IMG/VR virus record: IMGVR_UViG_3300017527_000493
Location: 1-48,085 of that record
Strand: one strand, 5' to 3'
DNA: 48,085 bases
Source: a virus
In this document: positions 2,986 through 47,084 of the stretch, in pieces
Numbering within the stretch: the first letter of the stretch is position 1
How the letters are laid out: every line of letters starts with the position of its first letter
Notes under the pieces: generated by a model
Database searches by the model: none
Told to the model about the DNA's origin: nothing
Seen by the model: the letters and a program-made list of their open reading frames with translations, nothing else
Translations under genes and position numbers: made by a program

Positions 2986-3003
2986 AATAGAAACTGTTCT
3001 CAG

Positions 3004-3059
3004 AGTTACGAAACTTGTGTAAACAAATGAGTTGTAATTTACATATAGTATTCGTAACT
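3004..3059 (+). promoter_or_regulatory. Nested inverted repeat in the leader of the next gene
   Basis: AGTTACGAA (3004-3012) pairs with TTCGTAACT (3051-3059). Inside, TGTAAA pairs with TTTACA, giving a two-part stem. It lies 26 bp before the start at 3086, so it may control translation or act as an operator. Confidence 0.4.
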
Positions 3060-3085
3060 TTGGGAACATTGTAAGGAAGGAAAAT

Positions 3086-4213: not shown

Positions 4214-4254
4214 GCTACTTATACAGTAGTATATAGTAGTTGGTGTCCGAGTCA

Positions 4255-4288
4255 GAGAGGGAGCATTAATTTGTTCCCTCTCTTTTTT
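4255..4288 (+). terminator. Rho-independent terminator
   Basis: GAGAGGGAGC (4255-4264) pairs with GTTCCCTCTC (4273-4282) around an 8-nt loop, followed by six T (4283-4288). Confidence 0.85.
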
Positions 4289-4325
4289 CCCACTAATACA
4301 TAATTATATGTTTTTATAAAGCATT

Positions 4326-4408
4326 CAAGGGAAGAGCACATTTCAAAAAGACACACCCCTGTGTCTATTTCATATTGTTACTCCTTAAGCTACACCGCTC
4401 TTCCCTTG
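4326..4408 (+). ncRNA. Candidate structured RNA with 12-bp closing stem
   Basis: CAAGGGAAGAGC (4326-4337) pairs perfectly with GCTCTTCCCTTG (4397-4408). Inside lies AGACACA-CCCC-TGTGTCT (4349-4366), a 7-bp hairpin with a CCCC tetraloop, plus an unpaired stretch containing CTCCTTAAG that could pair with Shine-Dalgarno sequences. It is not followed by a U-tract and sits between a terminator and the next gene, in a gap otherwise without coding sequence. It could be a small RNA or a leader element for the gene at 4474. Confidence 0.45.
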
Positions 4409-4815: not shown

Positions 4816-5105
4816 GCATAAATCGTGTGCAGCCTGCAATTGGTAGTGACGATGATTTTCTTGATAGAACAGAGAAAATGATACAAAAACCTTCTTTTGT
4901 TGTTCTTGATTCAAGAGGACATACATTAGTAGATATTAAAGGTTTCCCAATCTTTAGAATAGAGGAAGCAAACACATCATTACTATCACGAGAACAGCAA
5001 GAGGAAGCAAAGGTATATCTTGCTGAATCTGCTGACATCATTCGCAGACTGCTTAGAATAGTTAAAAAAGTAAAGGATACCATAGATGAACACAAAGAAA
5101 AGTGA
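4812..5105 (+). CDS. Protein of unknown function (97 aa)
   Basis: ATGA overlap with the previous gene. A central beta pair (PSFVVLDSRGHTLVDIKGFPIF) leads into a long C-terminal helix rich in Glu/Lys/Arg. No family is recognised. It overlaps the next gene by 20 bp. Confidence 0.65.
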   Translation: MSINRVQPAIGSDDDFLDRTEKMIQKPSFVVLDSRGHTLVDIKGFPIFRIEEANTSLLSREQQEEAKVYLAESADIIRRLLRIVKKVKDTIDEHKEK

Positions 5106-5547
5106 TATACTTAACGACCTTGAAAAAGGATTTGATACAGAAGGAAAGAAATCAACATCCTCACCACAGAGTTTAGCAAAAGCACAAGATGACTTTAAGG
5201 CAGGGAAGGTGGATTCCGCACAAGCCATGAAGCAAGCAGGCATAAAGAAAGATGACTCAAAAGCAAAGATGCCGACCACTAAGAAGAAACCAGTGCAGAA
5301 GAAAAAAGTTCCTGTGAAGAAAGAGAAAGTAACAAAGAAAATTCTTGATAAGAAAGTTACTGTACAGAAAGAAGATGGACATACATACGTAGGGGATAAC
5401 CCAGAGTGTGTAAACTGTGGACTACATAAAAATGATACTACAACCAATTGCTTTGGACAGGAGTTATATCCAGCGATGAAGTATAAGTTTAGTAAAGGAC
5501 TGATTGATTATGTAGACGGAAGTTGGGTAGCAGTAGAGAAGAAATAG
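5086..5547 (+). CDS. Lys-rich protein with a C-terminal zinc-like site (153 aa)
   Basis: The middle (about residues 64-95) is a run of Lys-Pro-Val repeats (KKKPVQKKKVPVKKEKVTKK), likely disordered and DNA-binding. The C-terminus has PECVNCGLHKND and a third Cys about 10 residues on, a short Cys-x2-Cys site. Histone-tail-like segments of this kind bind DNA non-specifically; the role is inferred. It is the last gene before the 451-bp RNA-rich gap. Confidence 0.65.
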   Translation: MNTKKSDILNDLEKGFDTEGKKSTSSPQSLAKAQDDFKAGKVDSAQAMKQAGIKKDDSKAKMPTTKKKPVQKKKVPVKKEKVTKKILDKKVTVQKEDGHTYVGDNPECVNCGLHKNDTTTNCFGQELYPAMKYKFSKGLIDYVDGSWVAVEKK

Positions 5548-5556
5548 AAACATAAA

Positions 5557-5686
5557 GGGCTATGGACAGTTAGATGATAACCAAATGAATCTGCATACCA
5601 GCCTATGCACTCAAGAGTGTAGGGGCAGCAGATGTGGACAGCGTTTGTATGTACTACGCATATGCAGAGTCCAGATTCCATAGCCC
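5557..5686 (+). ncRNA. Structured RNA module A (multi-stem)
   Basis: Closing stem GGGCTATGGA (5557-5566) with TCCATAGCCC (5677-5686), 10 bp. Second stem TCTGCATA (5590-5597) with TATGCAGA (5661-5668), 8 bp. Inside are two hairpins: CCTA-TG-CACT-CAAG-AGTG-TAGG (5602-5623) and GCGT with ACGC (5641-5659). The nested layout around a junction resembles a riboswitch or ribozyme rather than a terminator. It does not match a tRNA, lacking a T-arm before the 3' strand. Confidence 0.5.
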
Positions 5687-5699
5687 AGTAATAAGATAA

Positions 5700-5807
5700 A
5701 GGGGTAGTAGCTAATTGAAAATTAATAACTGTTATTAGATAGTATTGTTTCAATTTAGTGTTTGTTATAGAATGTCTGGAAACATAAAGTAATAAAATGC
5801 TACCCCT
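5700..5807 (+). ncRNA. Structured RNA module B (multi-stem)
   Basis: Closing stem AGGGGTAG (5700-5707) with CTACCCCT (5800-5807). Inner stem CTAATTGAAA (5711-5720) with TTTCAATTTAG (5748-5758), one bulge, capped by TAATAA-CTG-TTATTA. A further hairpin ATGT-CTGGAA-ACAT lies at 5772-5785. The architecture (closing stem plus two arms) parallels module A, though the sequence differs. Confidence 0.45.
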
Positions 5808-5853
5808 CAAGACTTGAATGCTGTGGCTGTTTGTAACAGTTGCTGATGTCGAG

Positions 5854-5962
5854 GCAGGGTAGTGTGTCTTAAACGTTAAAGAACGTGAACATAGACTCCC
5901 CAAAAAACTTCATACGTGGAGACATTGGAGCTAAACCCTATAGGTTATGTTCCCTACCCTGC
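5854..5962 (+). ncRNA. Structured RNA module C (multi-stem)
   Basis: Closing stem GCAGGGTAG (5854-5862) with CTACCCTGC (5954-5962). Inside are ACGTT-AAAG-AACGT (5873-5886) and AACC-CTATA-GGTT (5934-5946), with a possible CTCC/GGAG pairing. Its closing stem shares the GGGTAG/CTACCC core with module B, so the two could exchange partners. It ends 36 bp before the gene at 5999. Confidence 0.45.
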
Positions 5963-5998
5963 AGTCAAACATAATAAGAAAACAATAAGGAGGCTCAT

Positions 5999-6235
5999 AT
6001 GAGCATAAAGAAAAGGGAAGTAACAGCAGAAATTAAAAAGATAGATAGATTGCAGAAGGCTTTCATATCTGTTAGTCAACCTATAAGTGAGCAGATGGGA
6101 CATAATGCTCGAGTTAGAGCAGAAAGAGAAGTCATAGAGTATTTACTTGAAAGAGAAAAGAATGCTTGGGCTAAATATAATGACCTACATGCTCAAACAC
6201 AAACAACAGATAATGAGGAGGTAGATGATGGTTAG
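5999..6235 (+). CDS. Small helical protein of unknown function (78 aa)
   Basis: AAGGAGGCTC precedes the ATG. The product is charged and almost wholly helical (coiled-coil-like ERLE patterns around residues 40-60) with an acidic tail. It is the first gene after the three RNA modules and overlaps the nuclease gene, so any control by those RNAs would act on this operon. Confidence 0.65.
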   Translation: MSIKKREVTAEIKKIDRLQKAFISVSQPISEQMGHNARVRAEREVIEYLLEREKNAWAKYNDLHAQTQTTDNEEVDDG

Positions 6236-7169
6236 TCCTCATGAAACACATCAAATAATAGACTCATCTAAACTGCAGGAGTATATGACCTGTCCTCGTA
6301 AATACTTTTATAGGTATATGTTAGGCTGGAGTGGTACAGGTAGCAACATCCACCTAATATTTGGTGAAGCATGGCATAGGGCATTAGAAACTGTATTGAA
6401 TGAGGGATATAATGAGAAGGCTGTTAAGTTGGGCATGGCTAAGTTTCTTGATTATTATAGACAGTATTACACAGAAGACATGGATTCACAGTTTAGACCT
6501 AAAGACCCTGTATCTGCTTATATGGCTCTAATGGAGTACATTAAACATTATGAAGATGATGATTTTACTGTCTTATATACAGAAGTACATGGTACAGTTC
6601 CAATAACAGAAAATCAAATGTTGACTATGAGAATAGATGCTGTATGTATGGATAAGGAAGATAAGGTATTCGTGCTTGAACATAAGAGTGGTTCATACAG
6701 AGGAGGTACATGGACTAATCAATGGTTTCTTAAGACACAGGTAGGTGCATACATACATGCTTTATATTGTCTGTTTGACCCGAAGAATGTATATGGTCTA
6801 ATCATCAATGGAACATTCTTCTATAAAACAAAGACTGAGTTTGAACGAGTAAGGATTAGGAAACATAAGAGAATGATGCAAATATGGCTTGATAATGTTA
6901 GCTATTATATGAAACAGATAAAAGAGAACACAGAGTTAATGTATGAGGAACAAGGACAGGATAATCCAATCATGAAGTCCTTTCCAATGAATACAGAATC
7001 TTGCACAAAGTGGAATAGAACCTGTATGTTTCATGATTTCTGCTCCATCTGGGAAAATCCTCTCAAGAGGTGTGCTACAGTTCCACAAGGTTTTGTAGAA
7101 AGGTGGTGGAATCCTATGGAGTCTGATAAAAAAGCTACCAAGATGGAAGCAGGAGTGATAGTAAAATGA
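6228..7169 (+). CDS. PD-(D/E)XK nuclease, Cas4/RecB-like, Fe-S type (313 aa)
   Basis: Likely a recombination or end-processing exonuclease. Residue 22 is a Cys in CPRKYFYRY; a GEAWHRALE motif follows near 48; the catalytic core is RIDAV (D137) and VLEHKSG (E151, K153). Three further Cys cluster near the C-terminus (SCTKWNRTCMFHDFC). One N-terminal plus three C-terminal Cys is the pattern that binds 4Fe-4S in Cas4 and AddB. Tandem ATG codons occur at 6225 and 6228; GAGGAGG favours the second. It lies just upstream of the Sak4-like ATPase and DUF669-like partner, a common phage recombination set. The nuclease fold is well supported; polarity is unknown. Confidence 0.85.
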   Translation: MVSPHETHQIIDSSKLQEYMTCPRKYFYRYMLGWSGTGSNIHLIFGEAWHRALETVLNEGYNEKAVKLGMAKFLDYYRQYYTEDMDSQFRPKDPVSAYMALMEYIKHYEDDDFTVLYTEVHGTVPITENQMLTMRIDAVCMDKEDKVFVLEHKSGSYRGGTWTNQWFLKTQVGAYIHALYCLFDPKNVYGLIINGTFFYKTKTEFERVRIRKHKRMMQIWLDNVSYYMKQIKENTELMYEEQGQDNPIMKSFPMNTESCTKWNRTCMFHDFCSIWENPLKRCATVPQGFVERWWNPMESDKKATKMEAGVIVK

Positions 7170-7461: not shown

Positions 7462-7761
7462 ATGGCAAGTGTTATAACCAAGACAGTAAGAACACGTACC
7501 TGCTTTATCATAAGGGATGTTCATACACAGGATGCTTATGGTGCCTGTAAGAATATCTTTATAGGTAGTATATGTATATCTGGTTATGGTGGTAGAATAT
7601 CAGAAGCAGGATGGTACAAAGGCGTATTAAGGAACATTAGTAAGAGTAAAAATTGGAAACGTGCTATGTTCTCACGAGTACGTGTTGAAAAATTCAACAA
7701 AGACTTAATAAAGGAGCAAAATAACAATGGCAGAGTTCAATGTAGAAAAACAGATGGCTGA
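7462..7761 (+). CDS. Protein of unknown function (99 aa)
   Basis: The gene starts 2 bp after the upstream stop without a clear binding site. The product is basic and beta-like in its first half (TRTCFIIRDVHTQDAYGACKN). Its 3' end contains palindrome site 2 and overlaps the next gene by 35 bp, so the operator sits inside this coding sequence (encoding VEKFNK). Confidence 0.6.
   Translation: MASVITKTVRTRTCFIIRDVHTQDAYGACKNIFIGSICISGYGGRISEAGWYKGVLRNISKSKNWKRAMFSRVRVEKFNKDLIKEQNNNGRVQCRKTDG
7683..7699 (+). promoter_or_regulatory. Dispersed 17-bp palindrome, site 2
   Basis: TGTTGAAAAATTCAACA, identical to site 1, inside the 3' end of the upstream gene and 27 bp before the ATG of the Sak4-like ATPase at 7727. 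A weaker relative, ACTGAAAATTTCAGT, lies at 7787-7801 within the ATPase gene. Confidence 0.75.
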
Positions 7762-8524
7762 AATACAAGCAGCCTATGATGACACTACTGAAAATTTCAG
7801 TGCCCTTGTACAAGGTGAGCCTGGTGTTGGTAAGACACGGTTCATAGGTACAGGTCGATTACCTATCTTGATTGATAGCTTTGACCCAAAGGGTACTATT
7901 ATTTTAAGGCGTGTTTATGGTGACCTAATGGATAAAGGTCTGTTGTTAGTTAGAACTTTCTGGAATGAATCCTATAAAGACCCAAAGATGTATACAAAAT
8001 GGGAGGGTCTATGGGAAAGAGACATTGCAAATAAGTTCTTTGACAACTTTGGCACATATGGTATTGATAGTCTGAGTACATTCATAGATGCTATGGCAAA
8101 TGAAGTGTCTGATGAGAAAGGTAGAAAAGAAGGTACTTTGGCAATACAGGATTATATCCCCCTGTACAATAACTTAAAGGATATTGTGAAGATTACAGCA
8201 TCTCAAGACTGTGACTTCATATTGACTGGACACCTTGAACCTGTGAAGAATGAAGTAACAGGTGGTGTAAAGTCTGAGTTAGCAGTGTTTGGAAAGTTAA
8301 AAGTACAGATACCTTTGTTGTTCACAGAGAAGTATGTACTAACAACTAAGCCATCCTCAGATGGAACTAAATATATACTGCTAACACAATCAACGCATAG
8401 ACACACAGCCTCCACTCAGTTAGGTGCTGAAGGCGTCTTTAAAAGAGAGGAAGAACCTAACATAAAAAACCTGTTGAAGAAAGCAGGATTACCAACAACT
8501 GATAAAACAATAAAAGGAGAATAA
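7727..8524 (+). CDS. Sak4-like RecA-fold ATPase (265 aa)
   Basis: A P-loop ATPase of the phage AAA_24/Sak4 type, which helps single-strand annealing and recombination. The Walker A motif GEPGVGKT lies at residues 30-37; a hydrophobic strand with Asp (YGIDSLSTF) and CDFILTGH follow as likely Walker B and sensor strands. AAAGGAGCAAA precedes the ATG. The next gene is a DUF669-like protein and the Cas4-like nuclease lies upstream, the usual Sak4 neighbourhood. Assignment to Sak4 rather than another AAA_24 ATPase rests on this context. Palindrome site 2 lies in its leader. Confidence 0.8.
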   Translation: MAEFNVEKQMAEIQAAYDDTTENFSALVQGEPGVGKTRFIGTGRLPILIDSFDPKGTIILRRVYGDLMDKGLLLVRTFWNESYKDPKMYTKWEGLWERDIANKFFDNFGTYGIDSLSTFIDAMANEVSDEKGRKEGTLAIQDYIPLYNNLKDIVKITASQDCDFILTGHLEPVKNEVTGGVKSELAVFGKLKVQIPLLFTEKYVLTTKPSSDGTKYILLTQSTHRHTASTQLGAEGVFKREEEPNIKNLLKKAGLPTTDKTIKGE

Positions 8525-8525
8525 G

Positions 8526-8915
8526 ATGACTTTATTAAAGGTCAATTTAGAGAAGATTCCCGATGAGAAAACAGTACCAAAGGATGAGTACAATCTCGTA
8601 ATTAAGAAAGCAGAAATGCGTGAGTCCAAAAAAGGAAACACTATGCTTTCACTTTTCTGTAACATTATAGATGAACCCGATGCAAAGATGGTAGCACATC
8701 ACTTTATTATTCCAAAGGACGATGATGATAATAAGGTAATGTATCTAAGACGATTGAAGGAATTCTATCAAACAATGGGCTTCGACCTATCAGCTGATAT
8801 TGATGTTGAAGAAGAACTAACAGGCAAAGATTTCTGGGCTGTTCTTGATGAGGAAGAAAGCAAAGAGTATGGTGTTCAGAATAGGATTAAGAGATTCATA
8901 GTTCCAAAGGACTAA
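8526..8915 (+). CDS. DUF669-like ssDNA-binding partner (129 aa)
   Basis: It follows the ATPase by 1 bp, after AAGGAGAATAAG. The pattern is typical of the DUF669 group: YNLVIKKAEMRESKKGNTMLSLFCNII, then a basic/acidic loop, then YLRRLKEFYQTMGFDL. That group has an OB-like fold and is thought to act as a single-strand-binding partner for Sak4. An acidic stretch (IDVEEELTGKDF) lies near the end. A strong terminator follows, closing this unit. Confidence 0.7.
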   Translation: MTLLKVNLEKIPDEKTVPKDEYNLVIKKAEMRESKKGNTMLSLFCNIIDEPDAKMVAHHFIIPKDDDDNKVMYLRRLKEFYQTMGFDLSADIDVEEELTGKDFWAVLDEEESKEYGVQNRIKRFIVPKD

Positions 8916-9505: not shown

Positions 9506-9713
9506 TATATCAGACCTTGAAAGGAAAGAAGCTCTTAACCTTATCTTAGCTATTCGAAGAAGCAGAAGAACAGTTAAGGTTAAAGTAAAGAAGAAGTTAT
9601 CTCTTGGAGGTATAAAAAGAAAGGCAAATCCAATGAAAGCTCTTATAAAGGGTATGGATGCTACTAACACACAGGAACTATTAAATTATTTAGAGAGTTT
9701 ACAAGATGAGTGA
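9480..9713 (+). CDS. Small basic protein of unknown function (77 aa)
   Basis: An upstream in-frame GTG (9465) exists, but GTGAGGAG places the ATG at 9480 with 7 nt spacing, so I start there. The middle is very basic (RRSRRTVKVKVKKKL), then a helical, acidic end (TQELLNYLESLQDE). Probably binds nucleic acid or the following methyltransferase; this is inference. It is coupled to the ParB/methyltransferase gene by an 8-bp overlap. Confidence 0.6.
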   Translation: MQLNQIKNSISDLERKEALNLILAIRRSRRTVKVKVKKKLSLGGIKRKANPMKALIKGMDATNTQELLNYLESLQDE

Positions 9714-11094
9714 TATGAAACAAAAGGTAAAGGAAAGGATACATAAATTAAAGCCTCGAGTAAAGATTGTGAAACATGAGGACATTGTAGAGGGAGAAAG
9801 AGCAAGAGAAGAATATGGTGACCTTAAGGCACTTACCCTATCAATAGCAACACATGGCTTAATACAACCATTAGCAGTTGAGGAATTAGAAGAGGGGAAA
9901 TATTATCTGCTTGCAGGTGGTAGAAGATACAGAGCTATGGCTGAACTTAAAGGTATAAAAATACCTGTTAGGGTGTATGGTAGTGGACTTGATAATAGGG
10001 AAAGAAAGATTATAGAGTTGGAAGAGAATCTCAGAAGAGAAGACTTAACATACCAAGAGCAGTGTAAGCTAACAAAGGAAATACATAATGCACTTGCATC
10101 TTTATTAAGTAATAAGGGAAAGAAACATAGTATGAGAGATACAGCGAAGATGCTTAATGTAGATGTAGGTACAGTATCAAAGGACATCACACTTGCTACA
10201 GCAATGGAGGTCGTACCCATATTAGCTGAACAAAAGAATAAGAATGATGCAAATAAAATGCTAAAGAAGATGGAAGAGAAAGCGGACATACAGAAGATAG
10301 CAAAAGAATTAAGAAGTGAAAAGGCAAAGACACCAGAGAAGAAAGCAAAGTCAGAGTTGATGGATGCTTATCTTGTATCAGACTTTTTCAAGGGTGTGAA
10401 AAATATACCTGACAGTAGTGTAGGCTTCCTTGAGATAGACCCAGATTGGGCTATTGGATTCAAAAGGAATAGGAAAGAGAAGGATACAGAAGTAGATAAC
10501 TATGAAGAAGTAGAGCAGGAACAGTTTATAAAGTTCGCAAAGAAAATTGCTGATGAAGCTTATAGAGTTATGAAAGAGGGAAGTTGGGGAGTACTATTTC
10601 ATGGCTCAGAGTGGTCAAACATTCTGTATGAGCTATTCCTTCATAAAGGTTTCTTTGTTGAGAAGTATCCTGCCCTATGGATTAAAGATAAGGGCGGTAA
10701 TAGGAACCCGGACATTAGGTTATCAAAAGCATATGAACAGTTTTTATATTTTAGAATTGGACAAGCAAGGTTGTCAAGTGATAAGCTTGGTAGAAGTACA
10801 AACTTTGAATTCAGACAGCCACCGAACCAAAGTAGAATACACCCAACAGAAAAACCAATAGAATTATGTGAAGAAATACTTAATACATTTATAGGAAATA
10901 CAAAACGAGAGTTTGTATTGTCATGCTTTGCTGGCAGTGGTAACTGGCTACTTGCTTCTCACAACTTAGGTCACCTTGCACTTGGCTTCGATACATCACA
11001 AGCGTATAAGGATAAGTATACAGTTAGAGTAGCAAATGGAAAGTTAAGACAATACAAATCACTTACAGAGAAAAAGGAGAAAAGAAATGACTGA
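9706..11094 (+). CDS. ParB-domain / DNA methyltransferase fusion (462 aa)
   Basis: Residues about 20-115 form a ParB/Srx-type N-terminal domain (LSIATHGLIQPLAV, LLAGGRRYRAM, ENLRREDLTYQE). An HTH follows near 143-165 (MRDTAKMLNVDVGTVSKDI). The C-terminal half is a beta-class amino-methyltransferase: catalytic region IDPDW (D245-W248), HPTEKP near 386 and the AdoMet loop FAGSGN (408-413). The usual catalytic tetrad is (D/N/S)PP(Y/F/W); here the second Pro is Asp, so specificity or activity may be altered. Such phage fusions are thought to modify DNA for anti-restriction. The ParB/HTH half might instead recognise the dispersed palindromes. Start is coupled to the upstream stop. Confidence 0.85.
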   Translation: MSDMKQKVKERIHKLKPRVKIVKHEDIVEGERAREEYGDLKALTLSIATHGLIQPLAVEELEEGKYYLLAGGRRYRAMAELKGIKIPVRVYGSGLDNRERKIIELEENLRREDLTYQEQCKLTKEIHNALASLLSNKGKKHSMRDTAKMLNVDVGTVSKDITLATAMEVVPILAEQKNKNDANKMLKKMEEKADIQKIAKELRSEKAKTPEKKAKSELMDAYLVSDFFKGVKNIPDSSVGFLEIDPDWAIGFKRNRKEKDTEVDNYEEVEQEQFIKFAKKIADEAYRVMKEGSWGVLFHGSEWSNILYELFLHKGFFVEKYPALWIKDKGGNRNPDIRLSKAYEQFLYFRIGQARLSSDKLGRSTNFEFRQPPNQSRIHPTEKPIELCEEILNTFIGNTKREFVLSCFAGSGNWLLASHNLGHLALGFDTSQAYKDKYTVRVANGKLRQYKSLTEKKEKRND

Positions 11095-46728: not shown

Positions 46729-46908
46729 GGCTGATGATGGTTAATATTCAAATAATTTGTGTGACTGCTAATGAACATGATTGCAGGCGGAAAATCCCCA
46801 AGACACCCCCGCCCGATTATTATTATTGTTGCTGGAATGTACCAGCATAAATTTGTTGTGCCTCCATCTGCTGTTATTGTTGAACTTACAGGATATTAAA
46901 TGAATTGT

Positions 46909-46936
46909 TTGACATTAAATATAATTGTTGTAATAT
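46909..46936 (+). promoter_or_regulatory. Promoter (TTGACA-N16-TAATAT)
   Basis: TTGACA at 46909-46914 and TAATAT at 46931-46936 fit sigma-70. The same DNA read as TTTG (46908-46911), 19 nt, TAATATTG fits the Bacteroidetes TTTG/TAnnTTTG consensus with one mismatch. It lies about 150 bp upstream of the gene at 47085. Confidence 0.6.
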
Positions 46937-47084
46937 TGACTGATATTTGACAATTAGGCAGTCACATGAAATCATTATAAATTGTTGAGTATATGTGACA
47001 AACAGTGGCGAAAGTGTAATTGCTGGTCACATCGCCAGTGGCAATCGGACACCAGCAGGTAACCTTAATACAAGGAATGTATCA

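Follow-up and report, generated by a model that had tools for sequence, protein, structure and literature searches.

The window analyzed here, the whole stretch of 48,085 bases of viral DNA, carries the genes of its early half on the + strand. Among them is a recombination operon whose first recognizable gene encodes a PD-(D/E)XK exonuclease (6225-7169, +) and which includes a Sak4-like annealing protein (7727-8524) and an SSB-like protein (SSB/DUF669; 8526-8915). Ahead of the exonuclease lie a gene for a lysine-rich protein of 153 amino acids with a C-terminal Cys/His motif, NPECVNCGLHKNDTTTNCFG (5086-5547, +), which had no relative in Pfam, PHROG or PDB, and a gene for a 78-amino-acid protein of no family (5999-6235, +). 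Between these two genes is a 451-nt gap (5548-5998), the longest unannotated + strand stretch of the early region. The original prediction that this gap holds no gene was borne out: its sole long ORF is antisense (131 amino acids, 5508-5903) and was rejected as a gene based on a non-coding codon score of -0.16, compared to 0.03-0.23 for nine + strand reference genes.

The gap contains three modules that do not overlap, here termed A, B and C, each closed by a long stem, as had been predicted from perfect stems of 10, 8 and 9 bp; the modules span 130, 108 and 109 nt. Module A (5557-5686, +) forms a four-way junction with three inner helices (z about -4.2) and is closed by a 10-bp stem (GGGCTATGGA/TCCATAGCCC) with a pairing probability of 0.98. 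Past an A+U-rich linker (5687-5699, +; AGTAATAAGATAA), the likewise A+U-rich module B (5700-5807, +) forms a three-way junction with two inner helices, and its closing stem (AGGGGTAG/CTACCCCT) consists of 8 perfect base pairs, to which two further pairs are added in the minimum free energy (MFE) structure for a total of 10. The linker between B and C contains a weak hairpin (5812-5853, +; z = -1.9 on the + strand and +0.9 on the - strand). Module C (5854-5962, +; z = -4.4) has a 9-bp closing stem (GCAGGGTAG/CTACCCTGC) and two inner helices, so that the expectation of at least two inner helices per module holds throughout. Its last helix (GGAGC...GTTCC) is stacked on the closing stem without a linker, in the fashion of a T-arm, an arrangement that only C shows among the three modules. 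The remainder of the gap is a mostly unstructured leader (5963-5998, +) with an AAGGAGG Shine-Dalgarno sequence ahead of the next gene; this motif lies outside module C, which ends 36 nt 5' of the start codon at 5999.

The array is real and unusual, and its structure is probably at the RNA level. The whole gap folds with -129.2 kcal/mol (z = -4.2), which was equaled by none of 100 shuffles, and not one of 4,000 dinucleotide shuffles contained three perfect stems of 8 bp or more that do not overlap. Applied to 318 segments of 451 nt from the window, the same three-stem criterion selected only two, both of which overlap the array. The gap has four perfect stems of 8 bp or more with spans of 80-160 nt, compared to a maximum of three in any of 1,000 shuffles, and the closing stems of A, B and C have pairing probabilities of 0.98-0.997 in the ensemble of the full 451 nt. 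A fold beyond chance, with exonuclease, Sak4 and SSB genes downstream, thus supports the original proposal of structured RNA ahead of a nuclease/recombination operon. Stability is also greater on the transcribed + strand than on the - strand, both for the gap (z = -4.1 versus -2.0) and for each module (A, -4.2 versus -3.3; B, -5.2 versus -3.0; C, -4.4 versus -2.4). Because of this asymmetry, the structure looks to be under selection as RNA rather than as DNA. A large gap ahead of replication and recombination genes might also house a DNA-level element, for example a replication origin or protein-binding hairpins, but we consider this very improbable: the strand asymmetry results from G-U pairs and favors RNA, and the only family of direct repeats around the gap is a single imperfect pair.

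Using Rfam 15, no match to the gap was obtained at the gathering score (best sub-threshold hit with permissive settings: U4, E = 2.9), in agreement with the original statement that the array belongs to no known class. The families without a match include self-cleaving ones, contrary to the ribozyme-like character that had been suggested, as well as all aptamer and riboswitch families. A cis-regulatory switch for the recombination operon, whether a riboswitch, an attenuator or a protein-bound leader, would account for the position directly upstream of the exonuclease operon, and the GGGTAG/CTACCC core common to B and C would permit an exchange of arms in principle. We rejected the B/C strand swap that had been proposed on this basis, since its pairs have a probability of 0 in the full-gap ensemble. 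The riboswitch-like character fared no better: none of the modules has a U-run at its end, no intrinsic terminator or terminator-like site was detected in the gap (5548-5998), the Shine-Dalgarno sequence is left uncovered by module C, and most of the relatives inspected have no comparable structured leader before the exonuclease. Riboswitch and ribozyme readings of A-C are therefore weak, and a switch of any kind is improbable.

While the gap is structured, as originally noted, it is not the sole structured gap of this genome. Five early gaps of the window are 80 nt or longer, and each of them has z < -3; in a set comprising the relatives and the window, this holds for only 107 of 710 gaps. 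Structures in the other early gaps are mostly plain hairpins shortly 3' of stop codons, and the distance from stop to structure is about 5-12 nt (1108 to ~1114, 1968 to ~1980, 2985 to ~2995 and, for module A, 5547 to 5557). They include a stem-closed intergenic RNA (2994-3068, +) with a closing stem of ~18 bp that starts ~9 nt past a stop codon (z about -7) and a stem-closed module (4326-4408, +; z = -7.3) with a stem of 12 bp (CAAGGGAAGAGC/GCTCTTCCCTTG). Strongly folded early intergenic elements are also present at 1113-1147, 1980-2028, 2058-2086 and 4250-4290, the last of which is likely an intrinsic terminator.

These observations suit a role in cis, as punctuation of the early polycistronic mRNA, with closed stems after stop codons directing RNase cleavage and shielding the upstream message from 3' exonucleases, and with A-C as the most elaborate examples among several. 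We regard this as a real possibility, if one held at well under even confidence. It is favored by the prevalence of structured early gaps, by the regular spacing from stop codons and by the lack of a terminator-like site in the gap. RNase III processing sites in T7-like early mRNAs are comparable in being structured intercistronic elements of an early operon, but they are single hairpins, whereas A-C are multi-branched and arranged in tandem. Three consecutive modules are also more than the protection of one 3' end needs, and the tRNA-like RNAs found at such places in relatives (described below) look like cargo.

Relatives of this phage were identified using DNA polymerase and exonuclease profiles, with polymerase identities of up to 56%; single-protein queries with the exonuclease, the upstream gene or the terminase returned no close relative. 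DNA matches to the gap were found neither in 50,697 phage records nor among the relatives, and single-sequence covariance models of A, B and C matched only themselves in 1.64 Mb that included the relatives. Based on these two results, the modules may be fast-changing or recently acquired.

A profile search with the upstream gene recovered a sole homologue, on contig 3300037247_000411 (L010/L091), with 35% identity over 88 amino acids to L091:4483-5112. On this contig, a 123-nt tRNA-like RNA (L010 1840-1962) starts 9 nt past the stop codon of the homologue, a spacing identical to that of module A. It has a 9-bp acceptor (GTAGAACAG/CTGTTCTAC), a D-arm (GCACTAATTGGTAAAGTGC), a T-arm (GGAGGTTCGAATCCTCC) and a non-canonical middle. 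When the covariance model of module C was applied with filters off to both strands of all 12.9 kb of L091, the top match was this syntenic RNA (13.4 bits, E = 0.058); because matches of 13-15 bits arose by chance in controls, this is only a hint of a tie between the two. Given the tRNA-like RNA found at this site in a relative, A-C could also be what is left of decayed tRNA or tRNA-like genes, now without a function. This is the least probable of the explanations that we weighed: decay should have broken the stems, yet those that close the modules are perfect, and the fold is stabler than chance.

Closed modules and tRNA-like RNAs are both in excess among the relatives. Across 323 cleaned intergenic gaps from the relatives and the window, we counted 34 perfect closing stems of 9 bp or more, compared to 1-9 (mean, 4.2) in shuffles; perfect-stem-closed intergenic modules are thus ~8-fold enriched, with three of the 34 in the window. 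The enrichment appears only when perfect stems are strictly required and the gaps are cleaned: a loose MFE criterion (an 8-bp helix with bulges) gave 74 modules versus 72.5 in shuffles and hence no excess, in part because coding stretches of the other strand were included. A T-arm stacked on an acceptor-like stem was matched 31 times in 2.3 Mb, compared to 0-4 times in shuffles. Approximately five of these matches are ordinary tRNAs and most others are tRNA-Leu-like, except that the anticodon and variable arms give way to ~40-220 nt of unusual sequence. The relatives contain ~24 tRNA-like RNAs with a non-canonical middle.

These RNAs define a class, located outside the window, in which a tRNA-Leu-like shell (acceptor, D-arm and T-arm) encloses a hypervariable domain where the anticodon and variable arms would normally lie. 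Loci include L010 1840-1962 and 5617-5749, L057 499-618, L063 287-395, L096 1838-2030, L101 8417-8526, L120 2904-3012, L144 3218-3325, L154 3087-3213 and L171-L240. Using a pattern of D-arm, 45-75 nt and T-arm that left the acceptor unconstrained, we found matches in 65 viral contigs and in seven stretches among bacterial and archaeal genomes totaling 264 billion bases. For 54 of the 59 distinct shell sequences with full flanks, all seven acceptor positions are paired, despite 52 different 5' strands; when acceptor partners were re-dealt among the 59 as a control, the mean was 1.5 and the maximum 6. This pairing is strong compensatory evidence for the acceptor. Of the 59 sequences, 39 have an A immediately after the 7-bp acceptor, and a canonical anticodon arm (5 bp, 7 nt) was present at the tested offsets in only three. 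The class was not reported by Rfam at eight loci holding shell RNAs, and nothing matching was found in the literature on phage tRNA-like RNAs without an anticodon.

Modules A-C resemble the shell RNAs in that they are intergenic and that a single long stem closes off a branched, free-form middle, and module C alone additionally resembles them in its 3' helix stacked on the closing stem. When A-C were tested for shell features, they were found to enclose a free-form middle within a perfect closing stem of 7 bp or more. The canonical D- and T-arms kept in the shell RNAs are absent: the D-arm TGGCGRAATTGGTAGACGC was not seen on inspection, and a T-arm with a TTCRANY loop stacked on the acceptor stem was not found. 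Consistent with this, ARAGORN detected no tRNA or tmRNA in the window, the T-arm search found none there, and neither search nor inspection revealed a T-loop or D-loop consensus in A-C. For that reason, A-C are not classed as tRNA-like RNAs, and the only features that tie them to these RNAs are their position, their size and a closed-stem design.

Among known systems, T4 RNAs C and D come closest as a precedent for structured phage RNAs in tandem. Their annotation (rnaC and rnaD, species 1 and 2; NC_000866 70908-71171) is that of small stable RNAs, with lengths of 139 and 119 nt; they lie in tandem, 6 nt apart, and adjoin a tRNA-Arg gene. They are classed as late RNAs with Northern support (PMC9697503), and their role is unknown (PMC3014915). 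As with A-C, these are structured RNAs of ~110-140 nt that lie in tandem in a region free of protein genes, and the linker between the T4 RNAs is short; sequence similarity between the two sets was judged by inspection only. By contrast, the T4 RNAs adjoin a tRNA cluster and are reported as late, whereas A-C have no tRNA beside them and sit among early-type genes. RNA C also keeps a T-arm, which A-C lack. Folding is unusually stable for RNA C (z = -4.4) but not for RNA D alone (z = -1.0).

In RNA C (L242; NC_000866 70908-71046, - strand), the 3' end (...CCGGGTTCGAATCCCGG followed by the terminal-stem strand) is a T-arm, with the canonical form CCGGG-TTCGAAT-CCCGG beside the terminal stem. Because this arm adjoins the terminal stem, RNA C may belong with the tRNA-like shell RNAs. 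By extension, A-C could be far-diverged members of a phage-wide family of closed-stem carriers, in which a tRNA-like shell holds a fast-changing cargo that replaces the anticodon domain, T4 RNA C being the known example and the shell in the window being reduced to its closing clamp. We consider this wider unification unlikely.

Our best reading, tentative and nearly level with that of cis punctuation, is that A-C are small structured phage RNAs of the T4 RNA C/D kind, released from the early mRNA and acting in trans. It is supported by their multi-branched tandem design and by the tRNA-like RNA at the matching site in the relative; the structure of the other early gaps, mostly plain hairpins after stop codons, speaks against it and suits a cis role. 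As small trans-acting RNAs, A-C would be transcribed within the early + strand message, and host RNases would cut the A+U-rich linkers to free RNAs of ~110-130 nt. The long closing stem would then serve as a clamp guarding the RNA ends, and the trans-acting part would be the inner branched domain, most likely mimicking a host RNA (for example, a tRNA) or serving as a decoy for it. Here, we infer transcription, excision and stability as well as trans action and target. The decoy-like role suggested originally is possible and indirectly favored, given the tRNA-like RNA that occupies the matching site in the nearest relative. Should A-C indeed be tRNA decoys, they would be a pointer to host defenses or regulators that read tRNA. 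Similar tandem RNAs in a lineage unrelated to T4, together with the tRNA-like forms in relatives, offer many natural variants with which to probe the role of RNAs C and D.

Several further structured elements were observed in the relatives and the window. A common non-tRNA motif (GAGAGGCT...AGCAATCCNCCG) occurs at L014 1132-1212, L015 7231-7309 and L019 7664-7732, and possibly at L025 7900-7955; it sits in a closing stem of 10-12 bp whose sequence differs in each phage, and the first three loci had no Rfam match. At L145 614-696, two identical 31-bp palindrome-like repeats (TTTGCTATGTTACA...TGTAACATAGCAAA) lie ~50 nt apart (z = -10.8). A 117-nt closed-stem module at L056 3726-3916 abuts a tRNA-Gln gene with no spacer, comparable to T4 RNA D by tRNA-Arg. 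Near the right end of the window, a large gap contains a stretch closed by a long stem (46752-46980; z = -3.4 on the + strand). Finally, a 462-amino-acid protein encoded at 9706-11094 of the window combines a ParB N-terminal domain with a DNA methylase domain and has homologues in most of the relatives fetched.
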